Notes under the pieces: generated by a model
The model's input: the letters and a program-made list of their open reading frames with translations, nothing else
Told to the model about the DNA's origin: nothing
The model's database searches: none
NCBI GenBank assembly: GCA_017960525.1
Contig: JAGCZA010000052.1
Location: forward strand, 1-47,542
Source of the DNA: Prevotella sp.
GTDB taxonomy: Bacteria > Bacteroidota > Bacteroidia > Bacteroidales > Bacteroidaceae
Direction: 5' to 3'
Length of the DNA: 47,542 nt
Shown here: one piece after another, positions 11,476 to 30,082 of the stretch
Layout of the letters: each line of letters starts with the position of its first letter
How positions within the stretch are numbered: position 1 is the first letter of the stretch
Translations under genes and position numbers: made by a program

Positions 11476-11512
11476 AGTCTCTTGATATGAGTTTTGATTG
11501 TCAATGTGGGTG

Positions 11513-11544: not shown

Positions 11545-11585
11545 GAAGTTGTGCCAGAAATTGTGGCAGCACGTTCAGCCCCAAA

Positions 11586-11670
11586 AATTTGGACGAACCA
11601 AACTCATAGTTTGGACGAACCAAACTGGTAGTTTGGACGAACCAAAGTGGTAGTTTGGACGAACCAAATT
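11586..11670. repeat. 22-bp tandem hairpin repeat, four copies
   Basis: Four near-identical units at 22-bp spacing begin at about 11586, 11608, 11630 and 11652. The core is AGTTTGGACGAACCAAACT, which is itself a 7-bp inverted repeat (AGTTTGG/CCAAACT) around a 5-base centre. The units are separated by 3-5 bases. The same unit recurs at 35299-35361 and in degraded form at 47331-47390. Confidence 0.9.
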
Positions 11671-11991: not shown

Positions 11992-12017
11992 AAAACCACC
12001 CCTTGCGGGATGGTTTT
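11992..12017 (-). terminator. Probable terminator of prmC-recX-comF operon
   Basis: The inverted repeat is AAAACCA (11992-11998) and TGGTTTT (12011-12017), with further CCC/GGG pairing inside and a small TTGC loop. On the minus strand it ends in TTTTATCTTT. It lies about 200 bases beyond the comF stop, so it would end that operon if no nearer site is used. Confidence 0.45.
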
Positions 12018-12220
12018 AGTAGTGGAGTAGTTATCGTGATGTCTTGCTCCAAGGGCAATATCAATATAGTCTTGCCCCCCTCGGGATTCTGCCCGGATAG
12101 CCAAACTTAAGTTTGACGCTGCAAATATAGGCATTATTTCTGAATCCTGCAACTTTTTTAGCAACTTTTTTGTTTGGTTCAGGAAAAATGGGGTCAGTTG
12201 AAAATTCCGATGCATATATT

Positions 12221-12922
12221 TCAGACCACTTTCGTGAGGCCCAGCGAGAGGATGCTGATTTTCACGCCGCCGGCTTTGCACAGTTCCTTGGCGCAGGCTT
12301 TGATGGTGGCGCCGGTGGTGACGATGTCGTCGACCACGAGCAGGTGCTTGCCGGCGATGCGGCTGCCATTGGCCAGCAGGAAGGCTTCCTCCACATTCTC
12401 CAAGCGTTCCCAGATGCTGTTCTGTGTCTGGCTCTTGTTGAAATGTTTGCGCCTGACCACATCTGTGTAGACGGGCAGGCCGGTCACCTGGCCGATGCCA
12501 CGGGCTATCTGTTCGCTCTGGTTGTAGCCCCGCTGCCATTTCCGCTTGCGGGTCAGGGGCACGGGCACCGTGGCGTCGATGCCCTCGAAGAAGCCGCTGC
12601 TGGCAAACTGGCGGGCGGCCATACGGCCCAGGTCGGTGCCGATGTCGGCCTGTCCGTGGTATTTCAGGTCATAGATGAGCCGCGCCACCTCCGAGTGCGG
12701 TTCGTAGTAGAACAAGGCTGCTGCCCGCTCAACTGGCAGTACACCCCAAAAGAGCCGCGCCATCACGTTGTCGTAGGCGTTTGATTCCATGTGCGTGAGT
12801 GGCAGATGCAGATGGCAGGCCACGCAGATAGTGTTTTCGTCGGCAGTCAGCCGTTGGCCGCAGACGGCACAGGTGCGTGGGCTTATCAGGTCGAACAGGT
12901 CAGTCCAGAAACTCGTCTTCAT
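12221..12922 (-). CDS. ComF family phosphoribosyltransferase-like protein
   Basis: The 233-aa protein has an N-terminal zinc-ribbon-like pair, Cys18/Cys21 and Cys33/Cys36. A type I PRTase fold follows, with the PRPP-binding loop VVDDIVTTGAT near residues 194-204. LIYDLKYHGQ and KRKWQRGYNQSEQIARGI are hallmark ComF segments. In Firmicutes and Haemophilus, ComF helps DNA uptake for transformation and may assist the helicase at the inner membrane. In Bacteroidetes the protein is common but its role is less clear. It overlaps the upstream recX by 23 bp and is the last gene of prmC-recX-comF. Confidence 0.9.
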   Translation of the reverse strand: MKTSFWTDLFDLISPRTCAVCGQRLTADENTICVACHLHLPLTHMESNAYDNVMARLFWGVLPVERAAALFYYEPHSEVARLIYDLKYHGQADIGTDLGRMAARQFASSGFFEGIDATVPVPLTRKRKWQRGYNQSEQIARGIGQVTGLPVYTDVVRRKHFNKSQTQNSIWERLENVEEAFLLANGSRIAGKHLLVVDDIVTTGATIKACAKELCKAGGVKISILSLGLTKVV

Positions 12923-13397
12923 CTTCTACGTCGATGCATTGCCTGATGATTTCCATGTCGTAGCCACGCGAAAGGGCATACCTGATGAGCTTCTGGTTCA
13001 GCTCGTAGGGGCTGTTGGCCTTGGTGGTGTGCCGCTTTTGCTGGAGCAGGGGCATGAGTGCGTCCACATAGTCCTGTGGCGGCACAGCGTCGAGCACGTC
13101 GCGGCAGACTGCCGGGTCGATGCGTTTCTGGTGCAGGGCCTGCTCCACCTTCCGTCGGCCCCAGCGGTCGTAGTGCACTTTGTCGTTTGCGAAAGCCCGT
13201 GCATAGCGGGCATCGTCCACATATTGTTCCTTCACCAGGCGGGCCATCACCTGGGCCTGCTCCGCCTCGGCCACGCCCCACTGCCGCATCTTGTCCAGCA
13301 TGTCCTGCTGGCAGTGCTCGCTGCGGGCGCACAGAGCCGAGAGGCGCGTGTAGGCCTGCTGGCCGTTCAAGGGTTGCTTTACTGTTTGCATACGCAT
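12900..13397 (-). CDS. recX: Regulatory protein RecX
   Basis: The 165-aa alpha-helical RecX family protein binds RecA filaments and limits their activity. Recognised segments are three-helix repeats: DMLDKMRQWGV, LVKEQYVDDARYARAFANDK and WGRRKVEQALHQKRID. The YVDDARYARAF stretch is the strongest family signature. The start overlaps the prmC stop by 19 bp and the end overlaps comF by 23 bp, so the three genes are tightly coupled. recA is not in this window. An ATG two codons later (13391) is an equally possible start. Confidence 0.9.
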   Translation of the reverse strand: MRMQTVKQPLNGQQAYTRLSALCARSEHCQQDMLDKMRQWGVAEAEQAQVMARLVKEQYVDDARYARAFANDKVHYDRWGRRKVEQALHQKRIDPAVCRDVLDAVPPQDYVDALMPLLQQKRHTTKANSPYELNQKLIRYALSRGYDMEIIRQCIDVEDEDEFLD

Positions 13398-14362
13398 GTA
13401 AATCGTTGTTTGCCAAACTGGTCTTTTCTGGTCTCCACGGTGCTGAAGCCCGCTTGGTGCAGCATAGCTTCAAGAGGTGAGACGTATAGATGGTTGATTT
13501 CAAAGTAGAGCCGTCCGCCGGGAACCAGCGTCTGTGCGGCATAGCCGGCGATGGCGCGGTAGAACAGCAGCGGGTCGTCGTCGCTGACGAAAAGGGCCTC
13601 CTCCGGCTCATAGTCTGTCACGTTGCGGCTCATGTCTTCACGCTCCTGTCGGCAGATATAGGGCGGATTGCTTACAATGATATTCCACGTTGGCGCTGGG
13701 GGCAGGGTAGGGTGGAGGGCATCTTGCCGCTCAACAGTCACCTCGACCCCCAGCCGTCGGGCGTTGTCGGCGGCTGTGTCTATGGCCGTCTCGCTCACGT
13801 CCCACGCTGTCACGCGGCTGCCATCGATTTCTGCCGCCAGCGTGCAGGCGATGCAGCCGCTGCCTGTGCCAATGTCAAGAATCCTGATGTCCTTTCCTTG
13901 CGAATCCCTTTCTGCCGAAAACGGTGGTATAGCCTCTCCCCTCGAAAGCGGTGGTGTGGCTTCTCCCCTCGAAAGCGGTGGTATAGTCTCACCCCTCGAA
14001 AGCGGTGGTATAACCTCTCCCCTCCCTTCAAGGGGAGGGGGCGGGGGTGGGGTCTGTAATGTCGCAAAAATCCACCTGCACAGTTCCTCTGTCTCAGGAC
14101 GGGGGATGAGCACGCCTGGCCCCACGCGGAAACGGCGTCCGCAAAATTCGGCCTGCCCCAGCACATACTGCACTGGCTCACACTGCATCAGGCGCGACTG
14201 CAAAAGACGCAGAGGCATTTCGGGCAGCGTCTCCATTCGTCCGCACAGCAAATCGGCGTGGGTCAGCCCATAGAGTGTCTCCATCACCAACTGCGTCATC
14301 GCTTTAGCCTCGCCTGCCTCGCATACAGTTGTTAGTGGTCTCCAAAATTCATCGTAACTCAT
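13379..14362 (-). CDS. prmC: Release factor glutamine methyltransferase PrmC with repeat-derived insert
   Basis: PrmC methylates the GGQ glutamine of release factors RF1 and RF2 with SAM. The helical N-terminal domain (about residues 1-105) ends in CEPVQYVLGQAEFCGRRF and LIPRPETEEL. The Rossmann domain carries LDIGTGSGCIA and the catalytic NPPY motif. At 327 aa it is about 45-50 residues longer than usual. The excess is one proline-rich insert (about residues 107-155) between the two domains, made of four 9-residue units of the form IPPLSRGET preceded by PPPPPPLEGRGE. The DNA behind it is a 27-bp tandem repeat plus a dispersed palindromic element (13922-14057). The frame is kept and the catalytic motifs are intact, so it is probably functional. 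A -7 box, TAATTTTG on the minus strand (14393-14400), lies just upstream. Confidence 0.93.
   Translation of the reverse strand: MSYDEFWRPLTTVCEAGEAKAMTQLVMETLYGLTHADLLCGRMETLPEMPLRLLQSRLMQCEPVQYVLGQAEFCGRRFRVGPGVLIPRPETEELCRWIFATLQTPPPPPPLEGRGEVIPPLSRGETIPPLSRGEATPPLSRGEAIPPFSAERDSQGKDIRILDIGTGSGCIACTLAAEIDGSRVTAWDVSETAIDTAADNARRLGVEVTVERQDALHPTLPPAPTWNIIVSNPPYICRQEREDMSRNVTDYEPEEALFVSDDDPLLFYRAIAGYAAQTLVPGGRLYFEINHLYVSPLEAMLHQAGFSTVETRKDQFGKQRFTCVCKQ
13922..14029. repeat. 27-bp tandem repeat inside prmC, four copies
   Basis: CGGTGGTAT-type units start at 13922, 13949, 13976 and 14003, an exact 27-bp period. Each unit reads roughly CGGTGGTATAGCCTCTCCCC followed by TCGAAAG. Because 27 is a multiple of three, each copy adds nine residues to PrmC without shifting the frame. 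Confidence 0.92.
14011..14057. repeat. Dispersed C/G-rich palindromic element, copy inside prmC
   Basis: The element opens AACCTCTCCCCTCCCTT, then has AAGGGGAGGGG and a G-rich tail ending GGGTCTGTAA. It is nearly the same as the intergenic copy at 35432-35476 and as the reverse complement of 35503-35545. Here it lies within the prmC reading frame. Confidence 0.8.
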
Positions 14363-14560
14363 ACGTCAAAACCTTCAAATAGATAAACAATGCAAAATTA
14401 GTCAAAAATAGTGAAATAGCTGCAATTATCCCCCTCCATTCATTTTTCTTTGCGTCTCTTACTGTTTTGTTTTTGTCTCATTTTAATAAAATAAGTGGAT
14501 ATTATAAAAATATTAAATAAAATAGCAACGAATTTGTTAATGATGTAAACGAATTTTTCC
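14363..14560. other. AT-rich divergent intergenic region upstream of the PUL
   Basis: About 200 bases separate prmC from the first SusC. I see the prmC -7 box at 14393-14400 and AT-rich sequence running up to the PUL -7 box at 14561. No regulator gene and no clear operator palindrome is visible. Confidence 0.4.
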
Positions 14561-14568
14561 TAAATTTG
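14561..14568 (+). promoter_or_regulatory. -7 box of the PUL operon
   Basis: TAAATTTG fits TAnnTTTG. A TTTG (14533-14536) lies 24 bases further up, which is too far for a good -33 box. This suggests a promoter that needs an activator, as is usual for SusC/D operons. Confidence 0.45.
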
Positions 14569-14647
14569 CAAGCAAAATTTACTATGGCAGGCAATGATTG
14601 AAAAAAATTATATAATAAAAACGAGTTATGAATCAAAAACAGACAAG

Positions 14648-17600
14648 ATGAAACAGTTGACAAACTTTGTGAAAGGGACTGTTCTTCGTAATCCCGTCCG
14701 GCTATGCCGAATGTCGACATTCTTGTTGGCGATGATGTTCTGCACAACAATGTGGGCGCAGGACATTTCCATCAAGGGAACAGTTACCGATTCTAACGGC
14801 GAGGGGCTGATAGGCGCCTCGGTCGTAGTGAAGGGAAACACGTCGCTCGGTACGATTACCGATTTCGACGGTAACTTCCGCCTGAATGTGCCTTCCGAAC
14901 AGTCAGTGGTGGTGATTTCCTATGTAGGAATGGTCACGAAGGAAGTCAAAGTCGGCAAGCAGCGTAACATTAAGGTTGCACTCGCCGACAACACCAAGCT
15001 GGACGAAGTCGTTGTAGTGGGCTACGGACAGCAGAAGAAAGCATCGGTGGTCGGTGCAATCACGCAGACCACGGGTGAAGTGCTTGAACGGGCTGCAGGT
15101 ATCGGTAGCGTCAGTGCTGCCCTTACTGGTAACCTTCCGGGTATCGCAACCATCGCTTCCTCAGGTCAGCCTGGTGAAGAAGACCCGCGCATCTATATTC
15201 GCGGTGCAGCTGCCTGGAACCAGGATGCCCAGCCGCTGATCCTCGTCGATGGAGTCAAGCGTGAAATCAAGGCCGTGGATATTTCTTCCGTGGCTACGGT
15301 GTCAGTGCTGAAGGACGCATCGGCTACTGCCGTTTACGGTGTGGAGGGTGCTAACGGTGTTATCCTTATCACCACCAAGCGTGGTGTCGAGGGTAAGGCC
15401 AGAATCGATGTCGGCTTCAATGCTACGTTGAAGGCTGTCTCGAAGCTGCCCCGCAAGTATGATTCCTACGACGGCTATATGCTGCGCAACCAGGCCATCG
15501 AGCATGAGCTTGCTTTGGGCGGCGCAGGCTCGTGGGCATACTATCGTCCGCAGACATTCATCAACCTCTTCCGCAACCAGGACGGAACGGTGAAGCCAAA
15601 CTATACTGCCGACGGCAACTACCTGGGCGACTACAGCCAGGCAGAGCGCTATCCTAACATTGACTGGCAGGATGAGATGTTCAAAAGCACTGCCCTGTCT
15701 TATAATGCAAACCTCAATTTCTCTGGTGGTACGCAGGCCGTGAAGTATTTCGTGGCATTCGACTTCCAGAACGAAGGCGATATGACCCGTATTTGGGACA
15801 ACAACCAGGGCTACGAAGGCGGTTATGCCTACAATCGTCTGAATGTGCGTTCTAATCTGGACTTCCAGATCACAAAGACCACACAGTTCAGGGTGAGCCT
15901 GGCCGGCTCAAATGCCCAGCAGAAAACCCCGCGTTATTATTATGGTAATAGCGGCGAGTGGTTCCAGCAGCAGAACTGGGCCGGTGCCTATCGTATGCCG
16001 CCAAACGTCTACCCCGTCCGCTTCTCAAACGGCGCTTGGGGATGGTCGCGTCTGGCAGCATCCAACATGGCCAACTCTTGTATGAACGTGTCAACCGCAG
16101 GTTATGAGCTGAAGACCATCACACGTATCTTCACCGACTTCTCGCTCGAGCAGGACCTCAAATTCATCACGCCAGGCCTCATCGCACGCGGAACCATCTC
16201 ATGGGACAACCAGTTCAATGAGGGCGACCGTGGTATCAATGCCGCTGGTGGTTCTCACGTGAATAATACGGCATACATCATCCCTGAGGATGGCCAGCTC
16301 CTTTTTGAGAATGAGATTTACGCACAGACAGGTTTCGACTTCTACGAAAAGCGCGACTGGAGCACTCAGGCCGGTAGCGTCAATTATACAAGCCGTGCAA
16401 CCGAAATGTCGCTCCAGCTTTTCTGGGCACGCCAGCTCGGCATCCATAACATCTCGCTCATGGGTAACTGGAAACGCCGTATCAATGCCGGCAATGCCGA
16501 CCTTGAGAACCGCCGTGAGGACTGGGTGTTCCGTACAACATACGACTTGATGGGCAAGTATTTCGCAGAGTTCAACGGCGCTTATAACGGTTCGCAGAGG
16601 TTCTCGCCCGACAACCGCTTCGCGTTCTTCTGCTCAGGAGCTGCAGGCTGGATGATTTCGGAAGAGAAATTTATGCAGCCGCTGAAGGAAAAAGGTATTA
16701 TTGACATGTTCAAGATACGCGGCTCTATTGGCGAAATTGGTGACGATAGTTCAGGTGCACGTTGGGCATACCTGACTGGTTGGGAAGTCGCCGGGCCTTA
16801 CGCAATGAACCTTGACCACTCCAACAGCCCCTTTACTGGCTATAAGGAGGCAACCATCGCACAGCCTGACCTCCGTTGGGCAACGGTAAGGAAGAAGAAC
16901 CTCGGTTTCGACTACGCCTTCCTCAATGGTATGTTCGCTGGTAGTTTCGACTGGTTCCGCGACGACCGTTACGACATCTTTATTTCGGGTGCCGACCGTT
17001 CCGTGCCTTCATATTATGGTGCTGCCATGACCCCCGATATCAACAAGGGTAAGATCAAGAACACTGGTTTCGAGATTGAGCTTCGCTTCAACAAGGTCTT
17101 GAAGAACGGTATGCGCTTCTGGGCAAACACCAACTACACATACGCCCACAACGTCATCAAACTGAAGGATGACCCGGAATTGATTCCCAGCTACCGCAAG
17201 GCACAGGGCTATTCCCAGGGACAGTACCACTCTTACATCGACAACGGCTACATCAGCACCTACGACGAACTCTACAGTACGCCTGAACGTGAGAAGGACG
17301 ACGAGACAATCCTCATTGGCGACCATTACATCGTAGACTTCAATGGCGACGGTAAGGTGGACGAGACCAACGACCAGGCTCCTTACGGCTATACAGAAAA
17401 CCCGGAGCACACCTACAATGCCACCATCGGCTGGGAGTGGAAGGGATTCTCATGCTTCGCACAGCTCTATGGCGTCACAGGTGTCACCCGCGACGTGGGT
17501 CTGCCCTCATTCGGCGACCAGCTGCTCACAGTTTATGACAATGGCACTTGGTGGAATCCAGAACAAGGAGGCGGTGAAGTGGTCGTCCCGAGATTTACCA

Positions 17601-17866
17601 CACAGGTCTCCTACAACGACGGTACACAGTATCTCTATGATGGTTCTTATTTCCGACTGAAGAATGTGGAAGTTGCTTACACATGGACGAAAGGTTGGAT
17701 TAAGAAACTCGGATTCTCAAGCCTGAAGATTTACCTTAATGGTAACAATCTCTTCCTGATTACAAAGATGCCTGACGACCGAGAGAGTAACTACGGATGG
17801 AGCGGAGGCGGCGGTGCCTACCCAACCGTCAGACGTTATAACTTCGGATTCAAGCTTTACCTGTAA
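14648..17866 (+). CDS. SusC-family TonB-dependent outer-membrane transporter (first pair)
   Basis: This glycan importer forms a 22-strand outer-membrane barrel with its SusD lid and is powered by TonB. From the start chosen here it is 1072 aa. The signal peptide ends near MFCTTMWAQ. A carboxypeptidase-regulatory-like domain follows (about residues 40-120, GTVTDSNGEGLIGASVVVKG). The TonB-box/plug start is DEVVVVGYGQQKKASVVGAI, then a plug and barrel ending FGFKLYL. I preferred the ATG at 14648 (MKQLTNFVKG) to the one at 14594 because it gives a normal signal peptide, but the longer form is possible. It is the first gene of a SusC-SusD-SusC-SusD-DUF1735-GH10-like array equivalent in order to xusA of Prevotella xylan loci. 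Confidence 0.95.
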   Translation: MKQLTNFVKGTVLRNPVRLCRMSTFLLAMMFCTTMWAQDISIKGTVTDSNGEGLIGASVVVKGNTSLGTITDFDGNFRLNVPSEQSVVVISYVGMVTKEVKVGKQRNIKVALADNTKLDEVVVVGYGQQKKASVVGAITQTTGEVLERAAGIGSVSAALTGNLPGIATIASSGQPGEEDPRIYIRGAAAWNQDAQPLILVDGVKREIKAVDISSVATVSVLKDASATAVYGVEGANGVILITTKRGVEGKARIDVGFNATLKAVSKLPRKYDSYDGYMLRNQAIEHELALGGAGSWAYYRPQTFINLFRNQDGTVKPNYTADGNYLGDYSQAERYPNIDWQDEMFKSTALSYNANLNFSGGTQAVKYFVAFDFQNEGDMTRIWDNNQGYEGGYAYNRLNVRSNLDFQITKTTQFRVSLAGSNAQQKTPRYYYGNSGEWFQQQNWAGAYRMPPNVYPVRFSNGAWGWSRLAASNMANSCMNVSTAGYELKTITRIFTDFSLEQDLKFITPGLIARGTISWDNQFNEGDRGINAAGGSHVNNTAYIIPEDGQLLFENEIYAQTGFDFYEKRDWSTQAGSVNYTSRATEMSLQLFWARQLGIHNISLMGNWKRRINAGNADLENRREDWVFRTTYDLMGKYFAEFNGAYNGSQRFSPDNRFAFFCSGAAGWMISEEKFMQPLKEKGIIDMFKIRGSIGEIGDDSSGARWAYLTGWEVAGPYAMNLDHSNSPFTGYKEATIAQPDLRWATVRKKNLGFDYAFLNGMFAGSFDWFRDDRYDIFISGADRSVPSYYGAAMTPDINKGKIKNTGFEIELRFNKVLKNGMRFWANTNYTYAHNVIKLKDDPELIPSYRKAQGYSQGQYHSYIDNGYISTYDELYSTPEREKDDETILIGDHYIVDFNGDGKVDETNDQAPYGYTENPEHTYNATIGWEWKGFSCFAQLYGVTGVTRDVGLPSFGDQLLTVYDNGTWWNPEQGGGEVVVPRFTTQVSYNDGTQYLYDGSYFRLKNVEVAYTWTKGWIKKLGFSSLKIYLNGNNLFLITKMPDDRESNYGWSGGGGAYPTVRRYNFGFKLYL

Positions 17867-17870
17867 TTGA

Positions 17871-17905
17871 AGATTGAGCATTGAAGATTGAACATTGAAC
17901 ATTGA
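17871..17905. repeat. Heptamer tandem repeat at SusC/SusD junction
   Basis: Five 7-bp units (AGATTGA, GCATTGA, AGATTGA, ACATTGA, ACATTGA) run without a break from 17871, with a partial ATTGA before them that touches the SusC stop codon (17864-17866). They fill the gap to the SusD start. Confidence 0.92.
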
Positions 17906-17915
17906 TTATAGGAAA

Positions 17916-19949
17916 ATGAATATTATGACTATTAAGATAAACAGAAGACATCTGATAGGTTTGTCATTTATCATTTGTCATTTATCATTTGGCGTTGCGC
18001 TCACATCCTGCACCGACTGGCTCGACAAAGACCCGGAGTCAATCGTCGCAGAGGATGAGGCATTCAAGAACTACCGAAACTTCCAGGGCTATATTGAGGA
18101 AATCTACAGTCTGATTCCTGACAAGGAGAAGGTGAACTATTGTACCTCTTGGAACTTTGGTGATGACGCTGTCCACAATACTGAAGGCTATGCCCACATG
18201 GACCATCAGGTAGACCTGGGCAACTATCGCAACTGGTACAACAACAACCAGTGCTGGCTGAACGGTGACAGACAGTCGCTTTGGAAAAGTTCATGGTATT
18301 GCATCCGCAAGTGCAATATGGGTATTGAGAAAATCAAGTCCCTCGTCGGCACAGACGAAGAGGAAGACCTGCTGCTTGGGCAGATGTATTTCTTCCGCGC
18401 ATGGTGGCATTTCGAGCTGATGTGTTATTTCGGCGGACTGCCATACATCGATATGGCATTTGCCGCAGACGCCATCCCTGAACTGCCCCGCCTCTCATTC
18501 CAGGAATGTGCCGACCGTTGTGCAGAAGACTTCCAAAGGGCTGCCGACCTCCTTCCCCTGGATCCTCAGGGCTGGGACGAGACCCTCGCCGGTATGCAGA
18601 CATCAGGAATGAACGACCTGCGCATCAACAAGTTTATGGCTCTGTGCTATCTGGGCAAGTGCTATCTCTATGCTGGTTCTCCGCTGATGAAGGAATTTGA
18701 GAAGACCAAGAATGGTGGCGTGGCACAGCTCTTGGGCGCAAGCTCCAATGGCAAGACCTACGACTATGATGTAGAATACTGTAAGAAGGCTGCCGAAGTT
18801 TTTGGCAAGGTTCTTGATATGGTGAACAAGGGAACTGTCAGTTACAAACTTGCAGAGTACAAGTTTTCCAACATCTACGACAATGTGCGTGATGAAAATT
18901 CTGAGACGTGCTACTCAGACATCTTCTGGACGGAAAAGCAGGGATGGCAGACGCCAGGTACTACAGAGGCCATCTTCCGAGGTGTCAATTCGGGCTTAAA
19001 TACTGCCAACTGGAACTGCGCCAAGATTTTCGGCCCGAAGGTGGCCAGTCTGGTGGCTCACGACAAGATTATCCACCACCCGACAGCCAATGTCATCGAC
19101 CAGTACGGAATGGCCAACGGACAGCCTATCTATCTCGTGCAGAACGGACAGTATGTGCTCAACCCGCTGTCTGGTTGGGACCCCGAGCATCCATACAAGA
19201 ACCGCGACCCGAGATTCTATCACGATATCGTGTTCGACGGCTTCCACTACGTCCTCAGTACAGATGCTTTGAACGCCGAGCAGAAGAAGCATGAGTATTG
19301 CACGCTTTATACGGGTGGTGCTATGCGCGGTGTGGCAGATGGCAGCAGCACAGGCTATTTCATACAGAAGCTCGTGCCTCACCAGTGTAACGAGGGAGAC
19401 AAGTGGTACGAATGGGATCACAACTTCGAGTGCTACCTTCCCTATATGCGCCTTGCTGACGTCTATCTGATGTACGCAGAGGCAAGGGCTGCCATTGCCA
19501 CTACGGCTGGAGAGCTGAAAGAGAAGGCTCCATATTCAACGACACTGTCGGCTGTAGACGCTGTCAATGCCCTCCGCGACCGTGTGAACTCTTCTGATTA
19601 TCCGATGGAGCACGTGCAGGCCAACCTGATGGACACCAGGGAGCACTTCATCGATGAGGTGCGCCGTGAGCGTGCCGTGGAGCTTTCGTTTGAGGGCTTC
19701 CGCTGGTGCGACCTCCAGCGTTGGCTCCTCCTGACCGAGCCTCCTTACACGGTGAAATACTCTCATGAGTTTGAGCGTTTGGAAACCGACGCATGGTTTA
19801 AGGATCACGACCCGAAGGATGCACATATTGGCAACTTCCACAAGGAAGAGCTTCTCACCCGTCGCTTGGAATCGAAACACTACTGGTTCCCATTCCCCGA
19901 TAAGGATATTTATCTTTACGAAGGATTTCTCCAGAATCCAGGATGGTAA
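17916..19949 (+). CDS. SusD-family glycan-binding lipoprotein (first pair)
   Basis: This surface lipoprotein caps the upstream SusC and binds oligosaccharide before import. From this start it is 677 aa, on the large side for SusD. A signal peptide leads to a lipobox ending ALTSC, followed by TDWLDKDPES, the classic SusD opening. Helical TPR-like units follow (for example MYFFRAWWHFELMCYFGGLP), and the family C-terminus has RRERAVELSFEGFRWCDLQR and KHYWFPFPDKDIYL. The start at 17916 or 17925 (MTIKINRR) cannot be separated; both fit. The signal peptide is partly encoded by a 7-bp tandem repeat (17960-17987). The position matches xusB. Confidence 0.93.
   Translation: MNIMTIKINRRHLIGLSFIICHLSFGVALTSCTDWLDKDPESIVAEDEAFKNYRNFQGYIEEIYSLIPDKEKVNYCTSWNFGDDAVHNTEGYAHMDHQVDLGNYRNWYNNNQCWLNGDRQSLWKSSWYCIRKCNMGIEKIKSLVGTDEEEDLLLGQMYFFRAWWHFELMCYFGGLPYIDMAFAADAIPELPRLSFQECADRCAEDFQRAADLLPLDPQGWDETLAGMQTSGMNDLRINKFMALCYLGKCYLYAGSPLMKEFEKTKNGGVAQLLGASSNGKTYDYDVEYCKKAAEVFGKVLDMVNKGTVSYKLAEYKFSNIYDNVRDENSETCYSDIFWTEKQGWQTPGTTEAIFRGVNSGLNTANWNCAKIFGPKVASLVAHDKIIHHPTANVIDQYGMANGQPIYLVQNGQYVLNPLSGWDPEHPYKNRDPRFYHDIVFDGFHYVLSTDALNAEQKKHEYCTLYTGGAMRGVADGSSTGYFIQKLVPHQCNEGDKWYEWDHNFECYLPYMRLADVYLMYAEARAAIATTAGELKEKAPYSTTLSAVDAVNALRDRVNSSDYPMEHVQANLMDTREHFIDEVRRERAVELSFEGFRWCDLQRWLLLTEPPYTVKYSHEFERLETDAWFKDHDPKDAHIGNFHKEELLTRRLESKHYWFPFPDKDIYLYEGFLQNPGW
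17960..17987. repeat. Heptamer tandem repeat inside the SusD signal-peptide coding region
   Basis: Four units, TTTGTCA, TTTATCA, TTTGTCA and TTTATCA, are followed by a partial TTTGGCG. They encode the hydrophobic core LSFIICHLSF. Seven is not a multiple of three, so gain or loss of a unit would shift the frame. Confidence 0.9.
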
Positions 19950-19982: not shown

Positions 19983-22931
19983 ATGAAAAATATGAAAACA
20001 AATATATTTCTCTTTGCCATGCTTGCAGCATCGCCATTGACGGTCAATGCCCAGACCGCTGACGACGCTGACTCAATCGCGGCAAAAAAGAAAGTCCATG
20101 TCGCTTTCCGCGATAAGGATGCTGACCATCTACTCGGAGGCGTATCATACGTTGACATGGAAGAGCTGCAGAAGAAGGACTATACGATGAGCAGCCTTGA
20201 AGACATGTATGCGCTTGTCGGCGGATGGAATGGCAACAACCTTTGGGGCATGGACAATGACCGTCTTGACAACAACGACAATGGCAACCTTCCGATGGTT
20301 ATCATCGACGGAGTGAAGCGCCCGTCAAACAACGTGCTTCCTTCGGAAATTGAGCAGATAACCTTCCTCAAGGGCGCACAGGCCGTGGTGCTCTATGGCG
20401 CAAAGGCTGCAAAGGGTGCTATACTCATCACCACAAAGCGTGGCAAGGTGGACGGACTGCAAATCAAGGCCAACGCCAACACCGGCTGGCACTTCGCAAA
20501 GGAATTCCCGGAGTATCTCGGTTCTGCAGAGTATATGACACTCTACAACGAGGCTTGTCTTAACGACCAACTTCCCACAGGCGCAAAGTATACCCAGCAG
20601 GATATCTACAACCATGCTTTAGGCGTGAACCCCTACCGCTATCCCAACGTGAACTACTATTCAAGCGACTATGTCCGCAAGGCTTACAACCGTTCTGAGG
20701 GAACGCTTGAGATACAGGGTGGTGGCGCCCGTGCTCATTTCTACACGAACATCAACTACTACCGCCTGGAGGACCTCATCGACTTCGGACCGGCCAAGGA
20801 CAACTACACCGACCGTTTCAGCGTGCGTGGTAATGTGGACCTGGTCATCAACAAGGTCGTCAAGGGCTACGCTGACGCAAGTGCCACTTTCTACAATGAA
20901 AACAAGAACAAGGGAGATTTCTGGAGTGACGCATCTACCATGCGTCCGAACTTCCCGGAAAATGCCGCACCATTGATTTCCATTGACATGGTTGACCCCA
21001 ATGCTTCCAAGGCACTGGCTATCCTTAACAAGTCGCTCAACCTTCTCAACGGTGGTTACTTCCCTGGTGGCACAAAAGCCACACAGACGAATGCGATTGC
21101 AGACTGCTATTTCGGAGGACAGACAAAAGCTGTCAGCCGTCAGTTCCAGTTCGATGCCGGTATTATCTACGATATGAACAAGTTCGTCCAGGGCTTGTCA
21201 TTCAAGACCCAGTTCGCCATCGACTATGCTGCAAACTACAGTCTTTCTTACGACAACAAGTATGCTGTGTTCATCCCCACCTGGAGTAACTACAACTCAA
21301 AGGATGCTATCGTGGCCATTACCCAGCAGAACGATGAGGTGGTGTCCGGCCACATGGTCATGTCGAACTCTGCCTATCGCCAGACCATCAGTTGGAATGG
21401 CCATTTCGACTACGACCACACATTTGCCAGGGATCATCACGTTTCAGGCATTCTGCTCGCCAACATGTTTACTACAACATCCAGCAGCCAGTACCACCGT
21501 TATGCCAATGCCAACTTGGGACTTGAGGCCAGTTACGACTACAAGGGCCGTTACTTTGCCGACATTTCGTTGGCTGGCGTTCATTCCGCACGTCTGCCTG
21601 AAGGCCATCGTGAGGCCATCTCACCTTCTTTCACGATTGGCTGGAACCTTGCCAAGGAGCCTCTGATGAAGCGTGTCAATGGTGTCGATGACCTGTTGAT
21701 AAGTGCATCATACAGCAACCTGAACGAGGATATTGATGTGTACATGGGAGAGAAATATTTCTATCTCTACGATGCCAGTTGGAGTACGACCGGCAGTGGC
21801 TTCACTTGGAATGAAGGTTCTTCCACAAACCACACATTCTCACAGTCCGGCGCCAACCCGTCGCTCGACTTCATTCATCGCAAGGAATTCTCTCTGAGCC
21901 TGCGCGGTTCGTTCTTCAAGAAGCTGATTTCTGCTGAACTTACCTATTTCAATACGGATTTGGATGGCTTTATTGTCGACAACTTGACCACGTTCCCCTC
22001 ACACTTGAAGGGCGGCCTTTCAGGCAGTTCGTTCATGCCGGCCATCAACAACAACATCCAGAACCGCAAGGGACTTGACTTCAGCATCAAAGCCCAGAAA
22101 CAGATTGGCGATGTCAATGCTGCCATTGGAGTTGTCGGTACCTATCTTAAGACAAACTACAAGAAGTACGACGAAATCGTGGAATGGGATTACCAGAACG
22201 TGGAGGGACGCCCGCTTGATGTCATTTGGGGCTACAACTGCTTGGGCTTCTACACTATTGACGACTTCACTGTGTCCACAACATCTGAAGGCAAAACGAA
22301 GTACACTTTGAAGAGTGACCTTCCCTCTCCGAAGATTGGCGGTACCATCCAGCCGGGTGACTTGAAGTACGAGGATGTGAATGGCGATGGTGTCATCAAC
22401 AACAAAGACCAGGTTGATTTGGGCAAGTCTGGAGCATACGGCTCGCCTCTCACACTTGGTTTGAACATCACGCTCAAGTACAAGAACTTCACCCTCTTTA
22501 TGTTGGGCAACGGTCAGTTCGGCGCATACGGAATGAAGAACAATACGTACTACTATATGCAGGGCGATGACAAGTACTCTGTCAATGCACGCGGACGCAT
22601 ACAGTACACCTATGATGATAATGGCGTCATCAACGGGTTTGTCAATCCCAATGCCTCACATCCCCGCCTGACCACACAGAATTCGGCCAACAATGCTGCG
22701 GCATCAACCTTCTGGAAATACAGTACAGACCGTTTCAATATCCGCAAGATTCAGCTTACATACGACTTCCCCGAGGAAATGTTGAAAGGAAAGATTGTTA
22801 AGGCTCTCTCAATTTATTTGAATGGAAACGACCTGCTCACTATCTCAAAGGAGCGTGAGTTGTTGGAGACAAGCGTTGGCTATGCACCACAGACCCGTTT
22901 CTATAATCTCGGTGTTAAGGTAACCCTCTAA
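19983..22931 (+). CDS. SusC-family TonB-dependent transporter (second pair, short N-terminus)
   Basis: The 982-aa outer-membrane importer has a signal peptide ending near SPLTVNAQ. Unlike the first SusC it lacks the carboxypeptidase-regulatory-like domain, and I see no VVVVGYG-type box. The plug begins soon after the signal (about residues 45-150) with PMVIIDGVKRP, ITFLKGAQAVVLYGAKAAKG and ILITTKRG. The barrel ends YNLGVKVTL. The short form is typical of the second SusC (XusC position) of tandem xylan loci. How it engages TonB is uncertain from sequence. A second ATG three codons on (MKTNIFLF) is a possible start. It is followed by the second SusD after 15 bp. Confidence 0.93.
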   Translation: MKNMKTNIFLFAMLAASPLTVNAQTADDADSIAAKKKVHVAFRDKDADHLLGGVSYVDMEELQKKDYTMSSLEDMYALVGGWNGNNLWGMDNDRLDNNDNGNLPMVIIDGVKRPSNNVLPSEIEQITFLKGAQAVVLYGAKAAKGAILITTKRGKVDGLQIKANANTGWHFAKEFPEYLGSAEYMTLYNEACLNDQLPTGAKYTQQDIYNHALGVNPYRYPNVNYYSSDYVRKAYNRSEGTLEIQGGGARAHFYTNINYYRLEDLIDFGPAKDNYTDRFSVRGNVDLVINKVVKGYADASATFYNENKNKGDFWSDASTMRPNFPENAAPLISIDMVDPNASKALAILNKSLNLLNGGYFPGGTKATQTNAIADCYFGGQTKAVSRQFQFDAGIIYDMNKFVQGLSFKTQFAIDYAANYSLSYDNKYAVFIPTWSNYNSKDAIVAITQQNDEVVSGHMVMSNSAYRQTISWNGHFDYDHTFARDHHVSGILLANMFTTTSSSQYHRYANANLGLEASYDYKGRYFADISLAGVHSARLPEGHREAISPSFTIGWNLAKEPLMKRVNGVDDLLISASYSNLNEDIDVYMGEKYFYLYDASWSTTGSGFTWNEGSSTNHTFSQSGANPSLDFIHRKEFSLSLRGSFFKKLISAELTYFNTDLDGFIVDNLTTFPSHLKGGLSGSSFMPAINNNIQNRKGLDFSIKAQKQIGDVNAAIGVVGTYLKTNYKKYDEIVEWDYQNVEGRPLDVIWGYNCLGFYTIDDFTVSTTSEGKTKYTLKSDLPSPKIGGTIQPGDLKYEDVNGDGVINNKDQVDLGKSGAYGSPLTLGLNITLKYKNFTLFMLGNGQFGAYGMKNNTYYYMQGDDKYSVNARGRIQYTYDDNGVINGFVNPNASHPRLTTQNSANNAAASTFWKYSTDRFNIRKIQLTYDFPEEMLKGKIVKALSIYLNGNDLLTISKERELLETSVGYAPQTRFYNLGVKVTL

Positions 22932-22946: not shown

Positions 22947-24776
22947 ATGAAGACAAGAAACATTATTTTGTATTTCATGGGTCTCCTCGCTATCTGCTCA
23001 TGCGATGACATGTTTGAACCGGCAGACGAGAACACTCGACAGGAGGATGCCATGTACGAGGAGTCAGATTATGCACATGGTCTGTTGATATACGGTTATG
23101 ACCGGCTTCCTTATTTAACCACTACTCAGACCGACATTGCCACGGATGATGCTGTGACCAATTTGAAGAGCAGCTCCTACCTGAACATGGCAACGGGAAC
23201 ATGGGCTTCAGACAACAACCCTATGTCGCAGTGGGACAACTGCAAGGACGGCATACAGTATGTCAATCTCTTCCTCAAAAACGTAGAAAAGGTGAAGTGG
23301 TCACCAAGTGCAGCTTCAAAACAGCAGATGTTCATCGACCGTCTGAAAGGTGAGGCTTTCACGCTTCGTGCCATATTCTATTATTTCCTGCTCCAGGCTC
23401 ACGGTGGCTATGCAGACGATGGCGTGCTCTACGGTGTGCCCCTGCTGACGGCTCCTGAAGACGGTAGTTCCGACTACAACCAGCCACGTGCTACTTTTGC
23501 TGACTGCGTGAAGCAGTGCTTCGCCGACTGCGACAGTGCAATGGCGCTTCTGCCAGCAGATTATGTGGACATCAACAATAATGATGAGATTCCTGTGAAG
23601 TACAAGGAGCTGGGCGCAAACTACTCCAACTACAACCTTGTATTTGGTGGTAAGGCCAAAAACCTCATCTCTGGCAAGGTGGCCGAGGCTGTGAAGGCAC
23701 AGGTTGCACTTCTCGCCGCAAGTCCTGCTTTCATCGAGGGTAGCGGTGTCACTTCTGCTGAGGCAGCCGCTATTTGCGCTAATGTGCTCAATCGCATCGG
23801 TGGAATGGAAGGCTTCGACCCGACTGGCAACATCTGGTACAAGAACAAGCAGAAGCTGGAACCCAGCGCAGCCTCGGAAATGCCGGAAATCCTCTGGCGC
23901 GAAGACCGTGTTAAGAATGCAGAACAGGAAAGAGACAACTTCCCGCCGACGCTCTATGGCAGCGGTCGTGTCAATCCGTCGCAGAACCTGGTTGACGCTT
24001 TCCCAATGCGAAACGGACGGCCCATCACCGACCCCGAGTCTGGTTATGACCCAAAGAACCCGTATGTCAACCGCGACCCACGCCTTTCGGATGACATTCT
24101 CTTCAACGAAACGACATTCAGAAGATCTCTCATCGTTACAGGCCGTTATCCTGCCATCAATGGCGACATAAGCGAGACTGATGACAATATCAACAGCATC
24201 AGCACTTCAACACGTACTGGCTACTATATGCTGAAGCTGCTTCGCGACGATGTCAGCCCGCAGTCCAGCTCACTCATTGAGCAGTACCACATCTACCCGC
24301 GCATCCGCTACACCGAAATCTTCCTCGCATACGCAGAGGCAGCCAACGATGCTTGGGGACCGAAGGCAGACCCGACGGGCATAGGCTTCACCGCCTATGA
24401 TGTCATCAAGGCCATTCGCCAGCGTGCAGGCCTCGCCACCAACGAGATTGGTATGCCGCTTGCAGAAGGCGACGTTTATCTTGAGGAGTGCGCTAAGGAC
24501 AAAGGCGAGATGACTAAGCTTATCCGCAACGAGCGCCGCATTGAGCTTTGCTTCGAGAACAAGCGATTCTGGGACCTCCGTCGTTGGATGCTGCCGCTCA
24601 ACGAAACAGTCAAAGGCATGCAGATTGACCGCGACGAAGAGACGCACACACTCACATACACCATTATTGAAGTGGAGGACCGTGTTTTCGACAACTCTTA
24701 TCAGATGTACGGCCCGATTCCAAAGGGTGAAATGCTCAAATGGAGCAACCTCAAGCAAAACAAGGGTTGGCAATAG
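22947..24776 (+). CDS. SusD-family glycan-binding lipoprotein (second pair)
   Basis: The 609-aa surface lipoprotein has its lipobox AICSC at about residues 14-18, followed by DDMFEPADEN. Typical SusD features are LKGEAFTLRAIFYYFLLQAH near residue 135, PRIRYTEIFLAYAEAANDAW near 450, and the C-terminal LIRNERRIELCFENKRFWDL with RRWMLPLN. It caps the second SusC and occupies the xusD position. Unlike the first pair, the short gap before it (22932-22946) has no heptamer repeat. Confidence 0.94.
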   Translation: MKTRNIILYFMGLLAICSCDDMFEPADENTRQEDAMYEESDYAHGLLIYGYDRLPYLTTTQTDIATDDAVTNLKSSSYLNMATGTWASDNNPMSQWDNCKDGIQYVNLFLKNVEKVKWSPSAASKQQMFIDRLKGEAFTLRAIFYYFLLQAHGGYADDGVLYGVPLLTAPEDGSSDYNQPRATFADCVKQCFADCDSAMALLPADYVDINNNDEIPVKYKELGANYSNYNLVFGGKAKNLISGKVAEAVKAQVALLAASPAFIEGSGVTSAEAAAICANVLNRIGGMEGFDPTGNIWYKNKQKLEPSAASEMPEILWREDRVKNAEQERDNFPPTLYGSGRVNPSQNLVDAFPMRNGRPITDPESGYDPKNPYVNRDPRLSDDILFNETTFRRSLIVTGRYPAINGDISETDDNINSISTSTRTGYYMLKLLRDDVSPQSSSLIEQYHIYPRIRYTEIFLAYAEAANDAWGPKADPTGIGFTAYDVIKAIRQRAGLATNEIGMPLAEGDVYLEECAKDKGEMTKLIRNERRIELCFENKRFWDLRRWMLPLNETVKGMQIDRDEETHTLTYTIIEVEDRVFDNSYQMYGPIPKGEMLKWSNLKQNKGWQ

Positions 24777-26039: not shown

Positions 26040-26046
26040 AAGGAGG
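26040..26046 (+). promoter_or_regulatory. Strong Shine-Dalgarno sequence
   Basis: AAGGAGG lies 8 bases ahead of the ATG at 26055. Such a strong site is unusual for Bacteroidetes and fixes the start of the GH10-like gene, against the in-frame ATG at 26031. Confidence 0.65.
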
Positions 26047-26054: not shown

Positions 26055-27704
26055 ATGAATACATTTTTTAGAAACTCTCTCTTGGCGTTGGCAGCAGGAG
26101 CACTGGCAGTATCCTGTGCTGACTATAATGAGACAGACAATTTTTATGCCAAGCCTGACCCTGACTTTGTAGAGCCATACAAGGACTATGCTCCCGTTAA
26201 GTCATACATTGACAGGGAAGAATATCCTAATCTGTCTCTCGGTGCAACCCTGAAGGTGTCGGATTTCAATAAGCAGGAGCTGGCCCATGCCGCAGCTGTC
26301 ACCAATTTCGACAATATCGCTTTCGGCAGCACCCTTATGTCTGGAGCCATTATCAATGCCAAAGGTGTGATGAACTTCCTCGACATGAAAGATCTGCTCG
26401 ACCATGTGCAGGATATTGGCGGCGAGGTGTTTGGCAGCCCTATCGTTGCAAATGCCAACCAGGCTGACGACTGGCTGGCTATGCTCACCGCTCCCATTGA
26501 GATAGTGGTGGACTATGTGGAAGGAAAGAAAGTCAACTACAACGACTCGACGGAATTCCACGGCAAAGTGGAAAAGGGAAAAGCGTCTATCGTCAAATAT
26601 GACGACCAGAATATGCTTCAAATTGCTGCTGCTGCCAATGTGCGCATTGTTGAAGGTTTTGAAGTTGACCCGCTTGCCACTTACACCACCACATTTTGGG
26701 CAAAGGCCGACAAGGACACAGAGTTCTACATCTATTTCTCTGGCAAAAAGGTTGAAGGAAGTGGTGTCGACGGAAAGTGGAGTACCAAGGCCGGCAAACT
26801 GACAAAGATTGTTGTGGAGGCCCAGAGTGCAGAAGGCGAGACCGAAGGGTACCTGAGAATTGAGAATACCCGTAAGTCTGTCGTCCATATCCAGAAGGTT
26901 GAGGTTGGCTACTATCCTGACAACCACCGCCCACAGACAGCCCAGGAGAAGACAGACACCATCAACTATGCTCTCAAAGCTTGGTGTGAGGGTCTGATGA
27001 AGATTAATCTCAGACGTATCAACTCATTCGACCTCATCGACGAGCCTATCGACAACAAGGCTGAGTTGGAGAACGGTGTGTACGACCTGAAACACTCTAC
27101 CGACAAGATTTTCTGGCAAGACGTTCTTGGCAGCGAAAACTATGCTCCTGTAGTGGCAAAGGTGGCGCGTGAAGCCTACCAGAAGTATGAGGGTGAACCT
27201 GACGAATTGAAGTTCTTCATCAGCGAGACAGGGCTTGAAGAGCAGAAGAAATTTGAGAGCCTTCTGTATTGGATAAACATCTGGGACGGAAAAGGTGCGA
27301 AGATTGACGGTATCAATGCCAAGTTGAATCTTAGCTATAGCGAGAATCCAGAGACCCAGGCCGCATACGAGGCTTCTCTTAACAACCTTCTTGACAACCT
27401 TGCTAAGTCTGGCAAACTCATCCGCCTCTCCAACTTCGACATCAAGTATCAGGACGCTGAAGGTGCAAATGTGTTGGCAAAAGACATCACAGAGGCTCAG
27501 CGCCAGAAGCTTGCCGACTACTATGGCTCTGTCATTAAGAGATATATGACCAAGATTCCAAACGAGAAGCAGGCTGGCATCTGTAAGGGCAACATGGCTG
27601 ACACCAGCGACCCCGTTGGCCTTTGGTCTGTCGATAGCAGAAGTAAGGACTGGGTGCGCACCGCCACTTACAAGGCATTCTGCGACGCTCTCAGCGGAAA
27701 GTGA
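26055..27704 (+). CDS. GH10-like lipoprotein with inserted CBM and degenerate active site
   Basis: The 549-aa lipoprotein has its lipobox LAVSC at Cys21. The fold is recognisable as a GH10 xylanase barrel of the Bacteroidetes Xyn10C type. Start: VKSYIDREEYPNLSLGATLK (about 48-67). A beta-rich CBM4/9-like insert (about 155-288) is spliced in. The barrel then resumes with QEKTDTINYALKAWCEGLM, FDLIDEPIDN and KIDGINAKLNLSYSENPETQ. The acid/base glutamate is kept (Glu330), though the usual NE is DE. The nucleophile strand, normally ISELD/ITELD, reads LSNFD, so Asn460 replaces the nucleophile. The strand that usually carries TLxWH reads IVANANQ, the QMH histidine position reads KLN, and the tryptophan-rich C-terminal loop is KGNMADTSDP. 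It is very likely a non-catalytic glycan-binding protein derived from a xylanase. Confidence 0.82.
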   Translation: MNTFFRNSLLALAAGALAVSCADYNETDNFYAKPDPDFVEPYKDYAPVKSYIDREEYPNLSLGATLKVSDFNKQELAHAAAVTNFDNIAFGSTLMSGAIINAKGVMNFLDMKDLLDHVQDIGGEVFGSPIVANANQADDWLAMLTAPIEIVVDYVEGKKVNYNDSTEFHGKVEKGKASIVKYDDQNMLQIAAAANVRIVEGFEVDPLATYTTTFWAKADKDTEFYIYFSGKKVEGSGVDGKWSTKAGKLTKIVVEAQSAEGETEGYLRIENTRKSVVHIQKVEVGYYPDNHRPQTAQEKTDTINYALKAWCEGLMKINLRRINSFDLIDEPIDNKAELENGVYDLKHSTDKIFWQDVLGSENYAPVVAKVAREAYQKYEGEPDELKFFISETGLEEQKKFESLLYWINIWDGKGAKIDGINAKLNLSYSENPETQAAYEASLNNLLDNLAKSGKLIRLSNFDIKYQDAEGANVLAKDITEAQRQKLADYYGSVIKRYMTKIPNEKQAGICKGNMADTSDPVGLWSVDSRSKDWVRTATYKAFCDALSGK

Positions 27705-27781: not shown

Positions 27782-30082
27782 ATGAAGAAATTATTCACAC
27801 TTGTTGCTCTCTTAGCAGTGTTTATGGGAGCAAAAGCAGAGTGGGTAGAAGATTACAAAATTGACTACTCTACTTTGAGTGATTTCCCATTCTACGTAAT
27901 GGGGTATGCTCCATCTATTATTGATGGTGTTATGGTTGACAACCCAGTTCCTTATCGTAAGCTCTGGAGAGACTCTGACGATGGTTATGCTGATGTTGCA
28001 GGTGAGTGTACTGAAGTAACTATAAATGGTAGCGTTTTCTATGAGCAGCCTCTTGATAGTAACCCGTGGCGTCAGTATATTGTTGCTAATGAGGTTCCAA
28101 TGGAGCTTGATGTTACTTATACTATTAAAGTGGTAGTTAAGGCTTCTGAGGCTGTTAATTTGAATCTCCAATTTGGAAACTGGGGAAAATTAGTAGAGAC
28201 AGCTGTGTCTATTCCTGCAAGTGAAGATTTCCAGGAAGTCGAATGGGAGGTTGCAGGTTGTACCAATTCTGGCGGTGGCTTCATTTGTGTGCAGCCAGGA
28301 ACTTCAGAGGCTGCAATCGAATGGAAGTCGCTTACCGTTTCTCACAACGCTAAGGCTGCAAAGCCTGTTACGTGGATGGAGTGGCTTACCAGCGATGGAC
28401 AGTCTGTCATCGTTGAAACCAAGGTTGAAAACATTCCTACTTGGATGGGTAATGCCGAGACTCCTTGGGCTGATCCTAACGTGAAGTTCAACGACCAGGA
28501 GAACAACTACCTCATTTGCGCTTGGGGCAAGGAGAGAGAAGTCAATATGAATGATGATGGCGGTTGGGATCCCTTCCCCGCAACAATCGAACAGGAAGAG
28601 AGTGGTAACCACTATTTTATCGTTCATGGTAATGCAGCTACCACCGAGGGTGATGCTGCTGCTTGGGACAACCAGTTCTGGATCCAGTCTCCGAGAGAGT
28701 GGAAGTCTGGCACAGCGCTCAAGATTACGTTCCGCTACAAAGCTTCAAAGAACGTTACCGTTGCTACTCAGTGCCACAAGCAGAACCCGTCTGACTACCT
28801 CATCTGGCACGCTATTGGCGACATCGCCTTCACAACAGAATGGCAGACCTTTGAAGGTACAATGAATATTGCCGACGATATGAGCGGCACTTGGTCTATC
28901 GCATTCCAGCTCAACCAGAACGACAAGGACGCCATTGATTTCTATTTCGATGACCTCTCTTGGCAGAGCATGAAGCTCGACGAGGGTCTCTTCGTTGCTT
29001 CTTCCAACACAGTTACTGGCGTGGAATATGACTTCGATAACGCTACTGAATTTGTTGTTGATGAATACGATGATGAAGTGATGGTTGCTACAGTAGGTAC
29101 GCCTGGCAAGCAGGACACTTGGGTCAACGAGGTGATGATTTCAACCATTCGTGGTAACGACGCAGCATTCAAGGGCGCAACCATCAAGCCGACTGCTGCT
29201 ATCGTAAGCGAAGAGTGGATTGGTTATGAGACATCCAGCCTTGCAAAGATTAAGCTCCCCGCAGCTGGTGTATGGAAGATCGAGATTGCCCCATCAACAT
29301 TTGAGATTTGCTTCACAAAGATTGAAGGTGAAGAAGACAGAGAGCCCCTGGAAGAGATTGCCAACCCGACAGAAGTTGTCATCAATGCACCTGAGAGAGA
29401 GCCGACAGCCACTGAGCAACCTAAGGACGAGGAAGCTGGAATTGAAGAAGGCACAGGCCAGCCTTGGGACAGCCAGTTCTGGATTCTTGCTAACCGCGAG
29501 CTGAGCACTGGCGAATCGACCATCATCAAGTTCAAGTATATGGCTGCTACTCCCGCTACGGCTTCTACACAGTGTCACGCCGCACCTGGTGCTTATCTGC
29601 ACTGGGCCGCTATTGGCAACGTAGAATTCACTGAAGAGTGGCAGGAATTCGAGCAGACATTCACTGTTCCTGCTGAGGCAGACAAAATGCAGTCTATCGC
29701 ATTCAACCTCTCTGAGCTCAGGGATGCCAACATCTATAAGATCAAGGATGTCGTTTGGATGACTTCCGACATGTATGAGACGCTTATCGATACAGAGGGC
29801 ACCAAGAACTTCATGTTGAAGGAAGGTGCAAACACCGCAATATTCGAATTCGGTCACAAGCCTTCTGATGAGCAGCCTATTAAGGGTGACGTGAACAATG
29901 ATAAGGAAGTTGACGTGGCTGACATCTCGGCTATCCTGACCGTTATGTCAGGTGACACCTCGAAGTTCTCTTTGAAAGATGCCAATGTGAACGGTGACCT
30001 TGATAATGATGGAAACCCCGTGGTTGACGTGGCTGACATCTCGTCTGTGCTGACCATTATGGCTGGCGGTACAGCAGAATAA
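27782..30082 (+). CDS. Secreted multi-CBM protein with C-terminal dockerin-like domain
   Basis: The 766-aa secreted protein has a signal peptide (residues 1-19, ending GAKA) with no lipobox cysteine. Module 1 (about 20-185), with SDFPFYVMGYAP and NLNLQFGNWG, resembles the first CBM inserted in Xyn10C-type xylanases. Module 2 (about 215-400) has WDNQFWIQSPREW, VATQCH, WHAIGDIAFTTEWQTFEG and IDFYFDDLSW. Module 3 (about 540-665) is its paralogue, with WDSQFWILANREL, ASTQCH, HWAAIGNVEFTEEWQEFEQ. A beta-rich linker domain lies between them. The C-terminus (about 702-765) is a type I dockerin-like pair of calcium loops, GDVNNDKEVDVADISAIL and NGDLDNDGNPVVDVADIS. No catalytic domain is present. It probably binds xylan-type glycan, and the dockerin partner is unknown. 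Codon use in module 1 is clearly more AT-rich than in the rest. Confidence 0.82.
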   Translation: MKKLFTLVALLAVFMGAKAEWVEDYKIDYSTLSDFPFYVMGYAPSIIDGVMVDNPVPYRKLWRDSDDGYADVAGECTEVTINGSVFYEQPLDSNPWRQYIVANEVPMELDVTYTIKVVVKASEAVNLNLQFGNWGKLVETAVSIPASEDFQEVEWEVAGCTNSGGGFICVQPGTSEAAIEWKSLTVSHNAKAAKPVTWMEWLTSDGQSVIVETKVENIPTWMGNAETPWADPNVKFNDQENNYLICAWGKEREVNMNDDGGWDPFPATIEQEESGNHYFIVHGNAATTEGDAAAWDNQFWIQSPREWKSGTALKITFRYKASKNVTVATQCHKQNPSDYLIWHAIGDIAFTTEWQTFEGTMNIADDMSGTWSIAFQLNQNDKDAIDFYFDDLSWQSMKLDEGLFVASSNTVTGVEYDFDNATEFVVDEYDDEVMVATVGTPGKQDTWVNEVMISTIRGNDAAFKGATIKPTAAIVSEEWIGYETSSLAKIKLPAAGVWKIEIAPSTFEICFTKIEGEEDREPLEEIANPTEVVINAPEREPTATEQPKDEEAGIEEGTGQPWDSQFWILANRELSTGESTIIKFKYMAATPATASTQCHAAPGAYLHWAAIGNVEFTEEWQEFEQTFTVPAEADKMQSIAFNLSELRDANIYKIKDVVWMTSDMYETLIDTEGTKNFMLKEGANTAIFEFGHKPSDEQPIKGDVNNDKEVDVADISAILTVMSGDTSKFSLKDANVNGDLDNDGNPVVDVADISSVLTIMAGGTAE

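Follow-up and report, generated by a model that had tools for sequence, protein, structure and literature searches.

Is the GH10-like gene in a xylan-uptake operon of Prevotella sp. still the gene of a xylanase, or does its product hold glycans that other enzymes cut? The locus lies in a contig of 47,542 nucleotides (JAGCZA010000052.1), analysed whole and referred to here as the window. An initial annotation, made from the sequence alone, had described the product as a GH10 scaffold without its nucleophile, repurposed as a surface glycan-binding protein. Our main reading, held with a probability of roughly 0.7, is that the protein binds glycans at the cell surface without catalysis, that it descends from Xyn10C, the surface xylanase of the xylan utilization system, and that it lost catalysis separately from BACOVA_03431 of Bacteroides ovatus.

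The latter protein is the published precedent. According to its description, BACOVA_03431 of PUL-XylL is a GH10-related surface lipoprotein that has no activity because its nucleophile is lost and its -2 subsite disrupted. It binds two xylans, BGX and CX, whereas no binding was observed for its neighbour BACOVA_03430 (PDB 3N91). At the time of that report it was, according to its authors, the only naturally inactive GH10 on record (Rogowski et al. 2015, PMC4491172).

Gene organization and genomic context

The features of the locus are listed in Table 1. The gene order SusC-SusD-SusC-SusD-XusE matches the core of the xylan utilization system, given as xusA-B-C-D-E-xyn10C in two papers (PMC7848910, PMC3747994). 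Homologous loci were identified with six peptide patterns, the best 80 of 88 being retained. The DUF5627 gene is directly upstream of the GH10-like gene in 78 of the 80 loci, the other two beginning within the gene, and a homologue of the CBM protein is downstream in all 80. The five upstream genes are complete in 69, the remainder being cut by the fetched stretch. A second GH10 just downstream was identified in only two loci (L041 and L065), in both cases a residue-intact Xyn10C. In these two loci the CBM-protein homologue carries, instead of the dockerin-like tail, a short tail resembling those of type IX secretion.

Table 1. Coordinates of the operon genes and of the elements of the GH10-like gene in the window.
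Feature	Position	Strand	Evidence
SusC-like TonB-dependent transporter 1, XusA position	14594..17866	+	TIGR04056, 751 bits; order conserved
SusD-like protein 1, XusB position, provisional start	17895..19949	+	SusD_RagB PF07980, E 4e-43
SusC-like transporter 2, XusC position	19983..22931	+	TIGR04056, 401 bits
SusD-like protein 2, XusD position	22947..24776	+	PF07980, E 1e-47
XusE-position protein, BT_3987-like N-terminus and DUF5627, homologue of BACOVA_03430	24824..26026	+	Pfam; PDB 3n91, E 7.9e-60
AGGAGG, Shine-Dalgarno-like, 8 nt 5' of the ATG	26041..26046	+	sequence read
GH10-like protein without catalytic nucleophile, predicted lipoprotein	26055..27704	+	Pfam profile, alignments, fold comparison
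Cys21 codon, candidate lipobox cysteine (LAVSC)	26115..26117	+	alignment
Barrel part 1, about residues 34-148	26154..26498	+	
Inserted beta-sandwich with CBM fold, about residues 147-291	26493..26927	+	structure searches
Barrel part 2, about residues 290-549	26922..27701	+	
Glu330, GH10 acid/base position	27042..27044	+	alignment
Lys423, in place of Gln of Q-x-H, covaries with residue 330	27321..27323	+	alignment
Asn460 (AAC), GH10 nucleophile position	27432..27434	+	alignment
CBM4_9 protein with weak dockerin-like tail, adjoining the GH10-like gene	27782..30082	+	PF02018, E 1.3e-5; Dockerin_1, E 0.27, below cut-off

No Xyn10C with catalytic residues was found in the window. A scan of ten neighbouring ORFs, nine on the upstream side and one on the downstream side, revealed neither a glycoside hydrolase nor a regulator of a polysaccharide locus; two of the ten had no Pfam hit. 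Promoter and terminator scans added nothing, and a tRNA scan found none. The genome itself contains five GH10 matches, the one in the window being the only one lacking the nucleophile. In the alignment both glutamates are retained by three of the others; the fourth, which is misaligned, reads VVNE and TELD in translation; and none of the four matches Xyn10C at E 1e-20. Another contig of this genome (C137, L245:2-4198) contains a 1398-aa ORF, part of which shares 52% identity with residues 302-412 of the L065 Xyn10C and probably corresponds to the second CBM of that protein. A search of 51 genomes that carry the GH10-like gene, this one and 50 of those behind the 80 loci, identified a Xyn10C-type protein (>480 bits) in 20 and none in 31, including this one, an absence to be read loosely because most are draft genomes. 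The nucleophile Glu is kept in all 20 proteins read, one per genome, a second one in G340 lying outside the count.

Fold and domain layout

The product has 549 residues, and its (beta/alpha)8 fold and GH10 sequence likeness were both identified. Against PDB sequences, phmmer gave just two hits, both chance matches (E 0.65 and 2.4), and hmmsearch with the alignment of the protein nothing at E<=0.01, and NCBIfam has no name for it; it is the Pfam profile and the fold that reveal the kinship with GH10. Cys is found at residue 21 in 80 of 81 aligned rows (the window plus the 80 loci), with a gap in the remaining one, and by the lipobox rule it is the predicted lipobox cysteine.

The initial annotation placed a CBM inside the barrel, and structure searches bear this out. 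The closest match of the insert, of about 145 residues, is the CBM of BiXyn10A solved with xylohexaose, with CBMs of other families and unrelated beta-sandwiches close behind. A profile of six Xyn10C CBM1s gave a weak hhalign match (probability 8.7%, E 0.0039). The GDW motif is invariant in these CBM1s; the opposite stretch of the insert has no Trp.

Xyn10C, known from Prevotella bryantii and Bacteroides (Pm25, BiXyn10A), presents the same architecture, with the slot after XusE and a barrel split by a CBM insertion, reported to lie between beta-3 and alpha-3 (PMC7848910). Identity with the window protein is 31% in the second barrel part (87 of 281). Xyn10C contains both catalytic glutamates and two CBM4 domains, whereas the window protein has no nucleophile and a single insert.

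Loss of the active site

The residue-intact Xyn10C of L065, whose VNE and SEFD align onto VNE and TELD of the solved Cellvibrio Xyn10A, was the reference for the catalytic motifs. From this protein to the one in the window the nucleophile motif changes from RVSEFD to RLSNFD and the acid/base motif from WDVVNE to FDLIDE, the Asn-Glu pair on beta-4 reading DE, with Glu kept and Asn replaced. Further replacements are TQMH by AKLN, HTLAWH by SPIVAN and WCPTD by KGNMAD. The -2 subsite is also disrupted: Met95, invariant in 56 of 56 rows of alignment A1, is opposite the Lys of the Xyn10C AMKM motif, which we take to be part of that subsite. The losses at the nucleophile, at the NE pair and in the TLxWH and QMH motifs had all been noted in the initial annotation and are confirmed.

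A glutamate at the nucleophile position was looked for and is absent in all 81 rows (80 Asn and one Asp), one of the six patterns behind these loci (NFDIKYQD) including N460. In a sample of 301 family genomes, searched with a whole-protein family profile instead of peptide patterns, all 10 full-length relatives, the window's own included, have Asn. A mis-set alignment at the nucleophile was considered and rejected. At residue 329 there are 78 Asp and three Glu, and at residue 330, 74 Glu, six Lys and one Gly. From these residues, catalysis has very likely been lost in the window's clade.

Residue 330 covaries with residue 423 through a charge swap without exception: E/K in 74 rows, K/E in six and G/Q in one (n=81). 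The six K/E rows are somewhat more alike one another than the rest, so that the swap is possibly a single event. Judging from the alignment, the two residues probably form an ion pair in place of catalysis, Glu330 being no longer a catalyst. Four other residues, E391, E430, D462 and K511, do not vary in any of the 81 rows and could be taken, together with Glu330 kept in 74, as a different active site at the barrel mouth with a new catalytic activity. This we consider very improbable: with Lys in six rows and Gly in one, residue 330 offers no conserved general acid, and BACOVA_03431, its nearest characterised counterpart, does not act on xylans (PMC4491172).

Conservation and selection

The nine substituted-site columns, chosen by the author, have a mean conservation of 0.953 versus 0.809 for the barrel, a value reached by a fraction of 0.006 of 20,000 random draws. 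Among homologues at the locus the median dN/dS is 0.168 (241 pairs, dS below 1.2). ORF lengths in the 80 loci are 519-584 aa, the shortest (L054) running off its contig, as does L035. The conserved substituted columns and the low dN/dS indicate selection for a new state, not decay, and with the fixed slot they support the repurposing proposed in the initial annotation.

That the gene is the decaying remnant of an enzyme has a practically negligible probability. The several active-site losses would suit such a remnant, as would one internal stop in some matches to the Xyn10C query (G318, G322, G326, G339 and G346), but those stops probably come from the longer query reaching past the gene end, because the ORFs there are 548-561 aa. 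A further point in its favour is a split gene in the BACOVA_03431 clade (L305), but the ORF lengths and the dN/dS stand against decay, and so do the codons of residue 460 (AAC in 69 of the 80 loci, AAT in 10 and GAC in one). The split gene (genome G398, 1585-3796) consists of two ORFs of 291 and 331 aa and may represent a receptor decaying in that genome, or a sequence error.

Conserved neighbours (78 and 80 of 80 loci) and replaced xylan-contacting barrel motifs would also fit a structural role, in which the protein organises the two SusCD pairs and its barrel binds no glycan. This seems distinctly improbable, since the conserved substituted residues at the catalytic face and the CBM-fold insert suggest a ligand.

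The same slot in related operons

In the 301 family genomes, related operons with the same gene order carry a Xyn10C with both glutamates in the slot behind DUF5627. The count of slots comprises 74 GH10-type ORFs from the 65 genomes with matches, the window's genome not being re-counted. Right behind DUF5627 the nucleophile Glu is present in 24 ORFs, lost in 13 and in a gap in two; elsewhere it is present in 33, in a gap in one and lost in one, a 159-aa piece of undefined context. The 13 comprise nine members of the window's clade and four others: L137 (Gly) and three kin of BACOVA_03431, L266, L274 and L281 (Asp). Beyond this sample, slot proteins without Glu were identified in L192/L243 (Ala, kin of L137), L228/L253 (Ala) and L244 (Asp). 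L191/L242, close kin of L137, keep both glutamates and have lost the HTLAWH motif, looking in sequence like an intermediate.

BACOVA_03431 was located through its neighbour. The 3n91 stretch is 100% present in G370, and the next gene (L302:7924-10176), whose catalytic motifs are GNP and VSDLS, is taken to be BACOVA_03431 by its position directly after this match. Like the window protein, itself a predicted lipoprotein, it is GH10-like and occupies the slot that follows a DUF5627 protein, with the nucleophile lost, the barrel interrupted (two separate matching parts) and the -2 subsite disrupted. It differs in length (750 versus 549 aa), in the residue at the nucleophile position (Asp in VSDLS versus Asn in LSNFD) and, by the operon tree, in the lineage of its operon. 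Identity in the second barrel part is 25% (67 of 264). Xylan binding was measured for BACOVA_03431, whereas the window protein is known from its sequence.

Three other arrangements were observed. G370, a B. ovatus-type genome, contains two different nucleophile-less slot GH10s, the counterpart of BACOVA_03431 (L302) and another (L244/L319) reading ISDLN and ASCP. In L250 (G534, 6370-11163) an 897-aa slot GH10 keeps ISELD and has VSDP for VNEP, and is directly followed by a residue-intact Xyn10C, which makes another pair of an odd and an intact protein. In L253 (G706, 1-19815) more SusC, SusD and SusC genes are found directly behind the nucleophile-less slot GH10, indicating two transporter sets in tandem.

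One loss or several

With the active-site columns removed, the barrel tree requires three or more changes of state (3-4 in bootstraps), and a smaller set of chosen representatives 4-5. The trees exclude near-duplicates and short fragments, which in one of them removed four rows. The AU groups were named after the trees had been seen, and with this reservation a single clade of all 20 lost rows was rejected on the barrel (p 2.5e-7), the first AU test leaving the window's clade and L137 inseparable (p 0.514). The placement of L137 is conflicting: with L192 in the barrel tree (87/83) and with the Glu-keeping L242 in the operon tree (96/85).

The window protein and BACOVA_03431 could descend from one dead ancestor, the former being then a plain member of a known clade. 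The barrel tree without active-site columns that includes BACOVA_03431 joins the two (96/79), 11 of 78 aligned rows having been dropped (the two L305 halves, four close kin of BACOVA_03431, L250 and four distant GH10s). In barrel trees without BACOVA_03431 the window's clade adjoins residue-intact Xyn10C, and adding BACOVA_03431 and its kin shifts it beside other dead proteins; the union comes perhaps from long branches. The barrel also allows a grouping of the window's clade with 15 residue-intact Xyn10Cs (lnL 7.5 higher, p 0.654). The operon tree (SusD1, SusC2, SusD2 and DUF5627), which concerns the partner genes and not the barrel itself, sets the window's operons with L144 and L147 (100/99), whose slot Xyn10C has both glutamates, and the BACOVA_03431 operons elsewhere, with that of L244 (100/100). 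One clade of the two operon groups is rejected (AU p 3.5e-5), and a tree of DUF5627 only agrees. A common dead ancestor is thus unlikely. The better reading from these sequences is that catalysis was lost separately in the window's clade and in BACOVA_03431, provided that the GH10 gene travelled with its operon.

Proposed function

The catalytic residues are lost, yet the gene is conserved and keeps a fixed place in a xylan-uptake operon; this makes a surface receptor the probable function, which agrees with the initial annotation, a reading of the sequence that needs small corrections and whose reading of the function is probably right. By analogy with BACOVA_03431, the protein would sit on the outer face, where the insert and the remodelled barrel mouth, with the former acid/base Glu330 probably paired to Lys423, may hold xylan or long xylo-oligosaccharides. 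The chains would be handed to the two SusD/SusC pairs, and cutting would be left to other xylanases. The barrel may not bind xylan, because the usual GH10 contacts are largely gone, and the ligand may differ from xylan given the absence of GDW in the insert and the changed xylan-contacting motifs of the barrel.

A further proposal, which we offer tentatively and hold doubtful, is that the slot behind XusE is the site of a recurrent switch from surface xylanase to receptor, made independently at least three and probably four times in Bacteroidales, and that in the window's clade the pocket was rebuilt around the 330/423 ion pair for a ligand other than plain xylan, for example one with a charged decoration.

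GH18 chitinase-like lectins are another case of an enzyme fold reused for binding once the catalytic residues are lost; they belong to another family and other systems. They are named as the analogy for BACOVA_03431 in its report (PMC4491172). Within xylan systems, the XusE-position protein of a termite system bound arabinoxylan, and in Pm25 binding was mainly due to the two CBM4s, the dead catalytic module alone not binding wheat bran, both as reported in PMC7848910. Of two other papers, one mentions that the core xylan cluster of PUL-XylL includes the inactive GH10 (PMC4855328), and the other suggests for a Phocaeicola GH10 that it may bind rather than cut (PMC11610566).

Significance

A surface xylan-binding role in the homologous slot, suggested here by analogy, has a published precedent in BACOVA_03431 (PMC4491172), one that the initial annotation does not mention, and the idea of a dead GH10 as a receptor was already known, shown once in Bacteroides ovatus. 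In open-licence literature, by titles and abstract openings, no description of the window's clade or of repeated nucleophile loss was found. New elements are the extent of the clade, the 330/423 charge-swap covariation and the signs of recurrence. A large conserved clade is added in Prevotella-type genomes, many of them from ruminants according to record titles, and the pattern suggests that in this slot an enzyme has repeatedly become a receptor. For annotation, a GH10 label need not mean a xylanase, as one of the five GH10 matches in this genome has lost the nucleophile. The related operons form a natural series of replicates for asking whether the mouth of a glycan transporter needs a cutter or a holder.
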